Assembly (NCBI GenBank): GCA_013178305.1
Contig: JABLXB010000004.1
Location: 1-64,000, forward strand
Reading direction: 5' to 3'
Length of the DNA stretch: 64,000 nucleotides
From: Bacillota bacterium
Lineage (GTDB): Bacteria > Bacillota > Sulfobacillia > JABLXB01
Position 1 is the first letter of the stretch; each line of letters opens with the position of its first letter. Of the stretch, positions 10,783 to 13,903 are shown piece by piece. Made by a program: the position numbers and the translations under genes. The notes under the pieces were generated by a model. The model saw nothing but the letters and a program-made list of their open reading frames with translations, had not been told where the DNA came from and searched no databases.

Positions 10783-11436
10783 ATGAAGATGCTGGATGCC
10801 AGGGAGCTATTCGCGGAAAAGACCCTGAAACAGGCGTCCATCTGGTGTCGCGGGGTGCTCCAGAACAAGGAGGCCCGCGACCTGGCGGTGGCCCTGGCCA
10901 ACGCGGCCGCATCCGAGGGCAAGTACGTCCAGGCGTTCGACAACTACGTCGACCTGCCGGACAGGGTGCACGTGCCCGTACGCTCGTACGCCAGGATCGC
11001 AGACGAGCCGATCGAGTCCAGGTACATCTACGAAAACGAGAACCCAAACGCGGTGGTGCTCGTCGAGGAGTCGCTGGTGAAAGGCTGCCAGGTACTTGAC
11101 GGGATGCCGCCGGGCGGCGTGCTCGTGGTAAACACCAGGCGAAGCCCTGAGTATATCGCGGGGTTCCTGCGCAACGCCGCTAACCTTGCGAAGGTGGTCT
11201 GCGTGGATGCGTCCGGGATCTCGCAGACGATAGTGACGCTGTCCGGAGCAGAGGGCGCCACCGACGCGTCGGGGATCGGCGGCGGCCTGGCGGCGCCCCT
11301 CGCAGGCGCCGTCGTCAAGGCGACGGGCTGGGTAAACCTCGATTCTCTCTGCAAGGTAGTGAAAGACCCGGAATCCGCGACCATGGGGTTCAAGACCGCC
11401 CAGGTCTGGGAAGTGCCTGCGGGCTTCTTCCAGTAA
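10783..11436 (+). CDS. 2-oxoacid:ferredoxin oxidoreductase, gamma subunit (probable oxalate oxidoreductase)
   Basis: Domain III subunit of the pyruvate:ferredoxin oxidoreductase superfamily, 217 residues. The pattern IWCRGVLQNKEARDLAVALANAA followed by a central VLVEESLVKGCQVLDGM and a glycine-rich GIGGGLAAPLAGA tail is typical. It starts a four-gene set in order gamma, delta, alpha, beta. In the Moorella oxalate enzyme, as I recall it, the gamma and ferredoxin parts are on one chain; here they are two genes separated by 14 bases. ATG 10783 follows AAAGGATGG; an alternative ATG lies two codons later. Confidence 0.85.
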   Translation: MKMLDARELFAEKTLKQASIWCRGVLQNKEARDLAVALANAAASEGKYVQAFDNYVDLPDRVHVPVRSYARIADEPIESRYIYENENPNAVVLVEESLVKGCQVLDGMPPGGVLVVNTRRSPEYIAGFLRNAANLAKVVCVDASGISQTIVTLSGAEGATDASGIGGGLAAPLAGAVVKATGWVNLDSLCKVVKDPESATMGFKTAQVWEVPAGFFQ

Positions 11437-11450
11437 GGAGGTGTGGTCAG

Positions 11451-11732
11451 ATGACGCATACCGAGATGCCGTTCGCCGGAACCGTCGATTGCCCGACGAC
11501 GGTCAACCGCGGGATGGTGACAGGCTGCTGGAAAATGAAGCGGCCCGTCCAGAACAGGGACCTGTGTACCGAGTGCCTCAATTGCTGGATCGTGTGCCCC
11601 GACGCTTGCATTACCCAGACCGATGATGGCCTCACATGGAACTACGAGTTCTGCAAGGGCTGCGGCCTCTGCGGCCAGGAGTGCCCGGTCGGGGCGATCA
11701 CGTACGTTCCGGAGCTTGAGTTCAAGGATTAG
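11451..11732 (+). CDS. 2-oxoacid:ferredoxin oxidoreductase, delta (2x4Fe-4S) subunit
   Basis: A 93-residue ferredoxin-like subunit that carries electrons out of the enzyme. Two CxxCxxCxxxC clusters are visible: CTECLNCWIVCPDAC and CKGCGLCGQECPV. A 30-residue N-terminal extension precedes them, as in PorD subunits. The ATG at 11451 follows an AAGGAGGTG site. Between gamma and alpha genes with short spacings, clearly one transcriptional unit. Confidence 0.93.
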   Translation: MTHTEMPFAGTVDCPTTVNRGMVTGCWKMKRPVQNRDLCTECLNCWIVCPDACITQTDDGLTWNYEFCKGCGLCGQECPVGAITYVPELEFKD

Positions 11733-11745
11733 GGGGTGAAGGATC

Positions 11746-12939
11746 GTGGGCAAGAAAAAGTTCATGTCCGGGGTTGTGGCGACGGCCAATGCGGTTAAAC
11801 TCGCCGACGTCGACGTCATCGCCACGTACCCCATCAGGCCCTACACGGGCGTCATGTCGGAACTTACCAGGATGGTGGCCGACGGGGAGCTCGACGCCGA
11901 GATACTCCACGCTGCGGGCGAGCACGACCAGCTAGCTATTGCGTATGGGGCGTCCGCAGCGGGCGCCAGGACGTTCGTGGGGAGCTCCGGCGTCGGGGTA
12001 ACGTTTGCCTTCGAGGTGTACTCCCCCATGTCCGGCGCGCGACTCCCCGCCCAGTGCATGATCGCCGACAGGACCCTCGACCCGCCCGGCGACTTCGGTT
12101 CGGAACACACCGAGGCGCTGTGCTGCCGGGACCAGGCCTGGATAATGGGCTGGGCGGAGAACCCGCAGGAAGCGCTGGACCTGAGCCTGCTGTTCTACCG
12201 CATAGGCGAGGACCCGCGGGTTCTCCTCCCGCAGTTCGCATGCCAGGACGGGTATTTCGTGTCACACATCCCCGGCGAGGTCGACATCCCCGACCCCGCT
12301 CAGGTCAAAGAGTTCCTGCCGCCATACAAGAACCACCACTCCCTCGACCCGAACAAGCCCCAGATCATCGGCGCGCAGATCGAGCCGAAGATGGGCCCGC
12401 CCTTGCAGTACCAGAGGAAGATGGCCGTCGACGCGGCGCGCAAGGTGATCGTCGAGGCGCACGAGGACTTCGGCAGGATCTTCGGCCGGAAGTACGATCC
12501 CTGGATGGAGGAGTACTTGACTGAGGACGCCGACGCCGTGTTCTTCATACAGGGCGCGCACGCGGCAACCGCCAGGGCGGTCGCCCGCAGGATGAGGGAT
12601 CAGGGCGCAAAGGTCGGCGTGGTGAAGCTCCGCACCTTCCGCCCGTTTCCCTCCCGGGAGGTATGCGACAGGCTGTCAAGATTCAAGGTAGTGGGGATCG
12701 TCAACAACGACGCGTGCTTCGGTATCAGCGGCGGAGCGGGTGTCCTCTTCAGCGAGGTCCGCACCGCTCTGTACGGCCTCGGCGACAGGGTGAAGACCAT
12801 CGGCTTCGTCGCCGGTCTCGGCGGCGAGGTCATAAGCCGCGAGGAGCTATACTCGATGGGCAAGGTAATGCTCGAGGCCGCCAGGACGGGCGTCGTCGAG
12901 AAGGATACGTACTGGCTGCCGTTCGAGCTCAGCGCCTGA
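11746..12939 (+). CDS. 2-oxoacid:ferredoxin oxidoreductase, alpha subunit (probable oxalate oxidoreductase)
   Basis: Domains I/II subunit, 397 residues, GTG start. In pyruvate enzymes the substrate loop reads TYPITPSS; here it is T27-YPIRPY, with Arg31. It also has Arg109 and Asp112 in [10 protein letters not shown]. Arg31, Arg109 and the mobile Asp112 are the residues I recall as specific to Moorella thermoacetica oxalate oxidoreductase, and the numbering is identical. This makes oxalate (to 2 CO2 plus reduced ferredoxin, no CoA) more likely than pyruvate. Glu59 in GEHDQ matches the TPP-activating Glu. The rest ([23 protein letters not shown]) is full length. Substrate assignment is inferred from these residues. 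Confidence 0.85.
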
Positions 12940-12958
12940 TCGAAAGGAGGGTGACGAC

Positions 12959-13903
12959 ATGCTTGAAGACATCCGCTCGCTGGCTAAAGCCCCGAAGGAA
13001 GAGTATTACGCGCCCGGCCACCGTACCTGCGCGGGCTGTGGCCCGGCGCTCGTGTACAGGCTCGTGGCGAAGGCGGCCGGTCCCAACACCATATTCATAG
13101 GCCCGACCGGCTGCATGTACGTCGCTAACACCAGCTACGGGTGCGGCCCGTGGAAGGTGCCGTGGATCCACGCCCAGATCACCAATGGCGGCGGTGTGGG
13201 CTCGGGAATCGCGGCCGCATACAAGGCGATACTGCGCAAAGGCAAGAAAACGGGCGAGTACCCCAACGTGATAGTGATGGCGGGGGACGGCGGCGCCACC
13301 GACATAGGGCTGACCAGCATCTCGGGCGCGGCGTACCGCGGCCACGACATGCTGATCATCTGCTACGACAACGAGTCCTACGCCAACACCGGCATCCAGA
13401 CGTCGCCCACCACGCCGTGGGGCGCGTGGACCACGTTCACCCCCGCCGGCCCGGTGATCCCCGAGGGCAAGAGGATATGGCAAAAGGACAACCCCAAGCT
13501 CATGGCCGCCGGCCACCCGGCATTGAAGTTCATAGCCACGGCGTCCCTCGCGTACCCGCTCGACCTGATGAACAAGGTCAGGAGGGGGCTGAACGCCACC
13601 GGCCCGGCATACCTCCACATCCACGCCCCCTGTCCCAAGGGATGGATGTTCGCTCCCGATCTCACCCTGGAGATGGGCAGGCTTGCCGTGCAGACCGGCA
13701 TGTGGCAGATGTACGAGGTGTCCGGAGGCCGCTTCAAACTCACCCTGGAGCCGGAGAAGAGGCTCCCCGTCACGGAATATGTCACCAGGCAGGGAAGGTT
13801 CCGCCACCTCAAACCCGAGCACATCGAGAAGATCCAGCAGTTCATCGACGCGAAGTGCGTCGAGGCCGGCATCAAAGCGGTGACGCCGCCCGCAACGGCT
13901 TAA
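12959..13903 (+). CDS. 2-oxoacid:ferredoxin oxidoreductase, beta (TPP) subunit
   Basis: Domain VI subunit, 314 residues, which binds thiamine pyrophosphate and a proximal 4Fe-4S cluster. Visible features: cluster cysteines in CAGCGPA (Cys24, Cys27), GPTGC, and a distal CPKGW cysteine; and the TPP motif GDGGATDIG followed by [14 protein letters not shown] 12959 follows GAAAGGAGGG, 19 bases after alpha. Sequence [13 protein letters not shown] is usual for this superfamily. It ends the oxidoreductase set; a stem-loop and the permease gene follow. Confidence 0.92.

Follow-up and report, generated by a model that had tools for sequence, protein, structure and literature searches.

Based on a comparison of the oxalate oxidoreductase (OOR) locus in a 64,000-nucleotide stretch of a Bacillota genome (contig JABLXB010000004.1, positions 1 to 64,000; hereafter the window) with related loci, we tentatively propose, with rather less than even confidence, that OOR in vivo depends on its own CDC48/p97-type unfoldase, which would assemble or reactivate the thiamine pyrophosphate (TPP)/Fe-S complex. 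This ATPase would represent an enzyme-devoted branch of bacterial CDC48s, conserved across phyla including in Moorella, beside the kind associated with gas vesicles. OOR itself is known and the window enzyme is a further member of its family, with OOR activity highly probable judging from sequence; the CDC48 link is the weightier finding. The locus as a whole likely constitutes an oxalate-catabolism operon of a regulator, a CDC48-type motor, OOR, a permease and a short-chain dehydrogenase/reductase (SDR) protein, comprising the following genes.

7657..8340, + strand: GntR/FCD-family transcriptional regulator (Pfam GntR 4e-19, FCD 3.9e-29)
8465..10684, + strand: CDC48/p97-type AAA+ ATPase with CDC48_N, CDC48_2 and two AAA modules (TIGR01243, Pfam)
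10783..11436, + strand: OOR gamma part, equivalent to the N-terminal part of Moorella OOR subunit delta (5c4i_B residues 3-209, E 7.9e-81)
11451..11732, + strand: OOR ferredoxin part, a separate gene equivalent to the C-terminal part of Moorella delta (5c4i_B 227-315, E 2.3e-36)
11746..12939, + strand: OOR alpha, with YPIRP motif and RTLDPPGDF switch loop (5c4i_A E 1.1e-188; OOR clade)
12959..13903, + strand: OOR beta, the TPP-binding subunit (5c4i_C E 5.5e-161)
14031..15734, + strand: LctP/GlcA-family carboxylate permease, candidate oxalate importer (Pfam Lactate_perm 2.5e-69)
15977..16936, + strand: SDR/NAD-dependent epimerase-like protein, a recurrent OOR neighbour (Pfam Epimerase 2e-28)

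The genes for gamma, ferredoxin, alpha and beta are all present at 10783-13903, in agreement with the four-subunit oxidoreductase described there in an earlier note made from the sequence alone; they are co-directional and tightly spaced, and the ferredoxin gene product probably carries two [4Fe-4S] clusters. A promoter scan of 7400-17200 did not find a sigma-70-like site, and terminator counts in it equalled background.

A CDC48 lineage linked to oxalate oxidoreductase

Asp116 of the alpha subunit separates OOR from its sister clade, as detailed below, and is present in the window. Of the 57 Asp116 loci with enough upstream DNA, 55 have CDC48 immediately before OOR, in some cases separated from it by the GntR gene. 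This linkage spans several bacterial phyla, with examples in Clostridium, Myxococcota, Nitrospirota and Synergistota, and CDC48 adjoins the sister-clade oxidoreductase in none of 22 loci. An OOR-adjacent CDC48 is also carried by both Moorella stamsii and Moorella mulderi (alpha 97% identical to 5c4i), which share with the window the CDC48, GntR, LctP and SDR genes and the order gamma/ferredoxin-alpha-beta. In the complete genome G201, two divergent OOR operons (L152 and L153) each have their own CDC48.

Across 154 genomes of the window's class, CDC48 occurs in all six genomes with OOR versus 6 of the 148 others (one-sided p ~5.5e-8, kinship not corrected). The CDC48s of the class that are not at OOR all sit among gas-vesicle genes (gvpN, gvpF/L, gvpA/J), which were partly named by reading, with representatives confirmed by profile. 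A housekeeping gene lying near OOR by chance is ruled out, as CDC48 is found in only 12 of the 154 class genomes, always with OOR or gas-vesicle genes.

The window CDC48 passes the family model TIGR01243 (859.6 bits, cut-off 802.65) and has the archaeal VCP-like ATPase 5g4f as its closest solved structure. It shares with the archaeal VCP-like ATPase/CDC48/p97 group (5g4f, 5vc7) the CDC48_N and CDC48_2 domains, the two AAA modules and the aromatic pore loops of D1 and D2, and its Walker A and B motifs, pore loops and second region of homology are intact in both D1 and D2. Throughout the OOR-linked set, the Walker A and B motifs and the aromatic pore loop of D1 are near-invariant. In the tree these proteins group into a single clade (support 98) that excludes the gas-vesicle CDC48s and the archaeal ones sampled, and no HbYX proteasome-docking C-terminus was found among them. 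The window type differs from archaeal CDC48 in being bacterial, in its placement in an enzyme operon, in the missing HbYX tail and in its separate clade. For bacterial CDC48s other than those of Actinobacteria, a sporadic distribution and a place within the archaeal cluster have been described (PMC6017811). The CDC48s of gas-vesicle clusters have the same family and domain architecture and likewise belong to an operon for one large assembly, but they have another partner operon and fall outside the OOR-linked clade; CDC48-type ATPases of this kind are encoded in the bacterial gas-vesicle clusters at L155-L161, L163 and L164.

Full-text searches found no publication linking CDC48 with OOR, although the primary OOR papers may mention the neighbour, and the role of the OOR-linked CDC48 appears unstudied.

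Identity of the enzyme

When each of the four subunits was compared with all solved structures, the OOR of Moorella thermoacetica (PDB 5c4i, 5exd, 5exe) came first every time, with 630 bits for alpha (next solved relative, a pyruvate:ferredoxin oxidoreductase (PFOR), 220), 538 for beta (next 262), 274 for gamma (next 55) and 127.5 for ferredoxin (next 67); for alpha, the resemblance lies far above chance level. The alpha subunit, 68% identical to this characterised enzyme, passes the NCBIfam model OxalOxredalpha (732.5 bits, cut-off 500), and the gamma gene alone passes OxalOxreddelta (327 bits) at a cut-off of 230 set for the whole delta chain, with the ferredoxin gene spanning positions 227-316 of the same model (131.7 bits). 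OxalOxredbeta is the top family of beta, 240 bits ahead of all others. In the alpha tree, the window and Moorella both belong to a single OOR clade with 62 rows and an SH-aLRT support of 99, separate from the pyruvate-type outgroup and sister to the clade with Asn or Ala at position 116. The earlier note had proposed such a tree as a check on its OOR assignment, and the grouping of alpha with pyruvate enzymes that would speak against the assignment did not occur. No match to oxalyl-CoA decarboxylase over the cut-off was obtained in the 19 OOR genomes searched.

The active site was compared by reading the residues across 80 related loci. Tyr28, Arg31, Arg109, Asp112, Asp116 and Phe117 of alpha align one-to-one with 5c4i_A at identical numbering, which bears out the positions given earlier for the first four; all six are shared with the Moorella thermoacetica enzyme. 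OOR carries YPIRP instead of YPITP, with Arg31 binding the substrate and Asp116 forming part of the bait-and-switch mechanism (PMC5020499). The view that the first four residues are diagnostic of OOR could not be upheld. Tyr28 and Arg109 are present also in YPITP/PFOR-type enzymes of related genomes, and the sister clade (L082-L088 and L091-L105) has all four but Asn or Ala at 116, so the four-residue signature was discarded as proof of OOR. The assignment is instead made because of Asp116 and the tree. Membership of the sister clade is mainly archaeal (Methanomethylicota, Thermoplasmata, Desulfurococcales), and these YPIRP oxidoreductases differ from OOR in residue 116 and in having no adjacent CDC48. 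The window's class has bacterial relatives of the sister-clade genes in two genomes, at L005 and L006.

Taken together, gamma and ferredoxin correspond to the one delta chain of Moorella, to residues 3-209 and 227-315 respectively. The ferredoxin gene is in a different frame from gamma and has its own ATG, preceded by the Shine-Dalgarno-like AAGGAGGTG. The two parts are split in 40 of 58 OOR loci and fused in 18, a count in which some loci come from near-identical genomes and are thus partly dependent; the window has the commoner layout, whereas the parts are fused in its Moorella congeners. The separate genes pointed out earlier are therefore real, given the frames and start signals, but do not constitute a departure within OOR. 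In view of the differing frames, the own start signals and the 40 split loci, both a frameshift artefact and a novelty were discarded as readings of the split.

Proposed mechanism and alternatives

We propose that the operon would operate as follows. Oxalate would enter through the LctP permease and be cleaved by OOR on TPP to two CO2, with neither oxygen nor CoA taking part. The two low-potential electrons would pass through the Fe-S clusters to ferredoxin, and would leave as H2 via [FeFe] hydrogenases, not as acetate. The CDC48 N domain would dock to the OOR complex, and the CDC48 ring, driven mainly by D1 with its aromatic pore loops, would pull or thread part of an OOR subunit, helping assembly, cofactor loading or the rescue of damaged OOR. 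That CDC48 acts on OOR at all is probable from the conserved gene linkage; that its role there is assembly or repair comes close to an even call without quite reaching it.

AAA+ motors devoted to one enzyme are represented by Rubisco activase, CbbQ and NorQ, which serve Rubisco and NO reductase. They may offer a functional analogy, as AAA+ motors that are encoded next to a single metabolic enzyme or serve it exclusively; these are, however, single-ring proteins of other AAA+ clades, whereas the OOR-linked CDC48 is of the double-ring type. p97/CDC48 is best known as a ubiquitin-proteasome segregase. A separate CDC48 clade that goes with one metabolic enzyme would provide a candidate substrate for a bacterial CDC48, with oxalate-dependent reduction of ferredoxin or viologen as a simple readout. 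As predicted from the linkage, expression of OOR in other hosts may require the CDC48 partner.

Several observations weigh against this proposal. The OOR loci L037 and L066 have no adjacent CDC48; their genomes encode a CDC48 elsewhere, which lies outside the OOR-linked clade and is nearest to the gas-vesicle type. Several OOR-linked CDC48s have a degenerate Walker B motif in D2. CDC48 co-diverges with alpha (r 0.61) about as closely as the regulator does (r 0.58), which therefore demonstrates shared inheritance and not contact, and the mirror-tree correlation was discarded as proof of contact. Moorella OOR in its native form has reportedly been purified and found active on its own, which means that catalysis does not require CDC48. 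On the side of the enzyme, beta falls just short of its family cut-off (OxalOxredbeta, 570.1 bits, cut-off 590), and the permease scores below that of its own family (TIGR00795, 232.9 bits, cut-off 341), with oxalate only its putative substrate.

The main rival to assembly or repair is a role in turnover, in which CDC48 would control the quality of OOR or shut the enzyme off by unfolding it for degradation; alternatively, CDC48 would be a passive passenger of the operon. Homologues of the CDC48 and VAT type deliver unfolded proteins to proteasomes, the gas-vesicle CDC48s show that the gene occurs in other operons, and two OOR loci have no CDC48 next to them. Turnover is nevertheless at odds with the absence of the HbYX tail from the OOR-linked set, and a passenger would hardly explain a linkage kept almost universally across phyla, so we regard this pair of explanations as unlikely, if still deserving of attention.

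A rival concerning the enzyme itself would make it an OOR-lineage 2-oxoacid:ferredoxin oxidoreductase acting on another small dicarboxylate or 2-oxoacid, e.g. glyoxylate. The sister clade, with YPIRP, Arg109 and Asp112 but Asn or Ala at 116, shows the motif to occur outside OOR as well, the window permease is a member of a lactate/glycolate family, and beta lies 20 bits below the OOR cut-off. However, the identity of alpha to the characterised Moorella enzyme, the retention of every active-site residue tested, Asp116 included, the placement of alpha within the OOR clade and an oxalate/formate antiporter at an orthologous locus together make another substrate very improbable.

Fate of the electrons in the host

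Moorella channels oxalate electrons into acetogenesis. The earlier note proposed acetogenesis for the window too, and saw a fitting component of it in the formate-tetrahydrofolate (THF) ligase at 55707. AcsB is present in 26 of 54 OOR genomes and the host has a carbon monoxide dehydrogenase (CODH) catalytic subunit, but AcsB (PF03598) gave no match in the window's genome, scored 97.7% complete, and the CODH subunit is a lone one, without an evident acetyl-CoA synthase (ACS) operon. The ligase (55707-57404) adjoins imidazolonepropionase (hutI, 57615-58910) and histidine ammonia-lyase (hutH, 60063-61646), both identified by reading translations; in that setting it could act on formyl-THF from histidine to release formate, and histidine catabolism probably explains it at least as well as acetogenesis does. 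With AcsB not found and the ligase in a hut context, acetogenesis in this host can be dismissed as extremely improbable.

As AcsB occurs in no more than 26 of the 54 genomes, OOR is not tied to acetogens; the window adds to the family, which spans several phyla, a genome in which acetyl-CoA synthase gave no match, unlike acetogenic Moorella. Several [FeFe] hydrogenases are encoded in the host, with what appears to be a bifurcating set among them, and because of these bifurcating-type genes H2 is a plausible electron sink, likelier than acetate.

Neighbouring genes

The genes that neighbour OOR fit oxalate use. Homologues of the GntR/FCD regulator occur at 41 of the 62 OOR loci, and an LctP permease at 13 of the 62, the window included. 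At 15 loci OOR has a major facilitator superfamily transporter next to it; one member was tested, and it passes the model TIGR04259 for the oxalate/formate antiporter (413 bits, cut-off 335). The antiporter and LctP never stand together at one OOR locus. TctA-type transporters are found at 12 OOR loci, and ThiC, of TPP synthesis, is near OOR in five. Homologues of the SDR protein, which has an AWSFS motif, occur at 11 OOR loci including those of two Moorella species; a similar AWSFS protein is encoded at six sister-clade loci (e.g. L082:4380-5315).

In the Methanomethylicota of the sister clade, a protein of ~94 residues is encoded directly upstream of gamma (L082:8595-8879, with homologues in L083-L088). 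Profile comparison matches it to CDC48 N domains (probability 80%, E 1.5e-5), and a molybdopterin-binding domain also matches; it is possibly a stand-alone CDC48-like adaptor. A Pup-ligase (PafA/Dop-like) gene (L082:5367-6752, Pfam 4.7e-60) lies near the same archaeal oxidoreductase, and its family is present also in L083-L088.

Finally, we note a gamma-glutamyltransferase-family gene near OOR at L027:15535-17139 and at nine other OOR loci. The gamma-glutamyltransferase superfamily includes oxamate amidohydrolase, which releases oxalate, and the OOR-adjacent member may supply oxalate to the enzyme.

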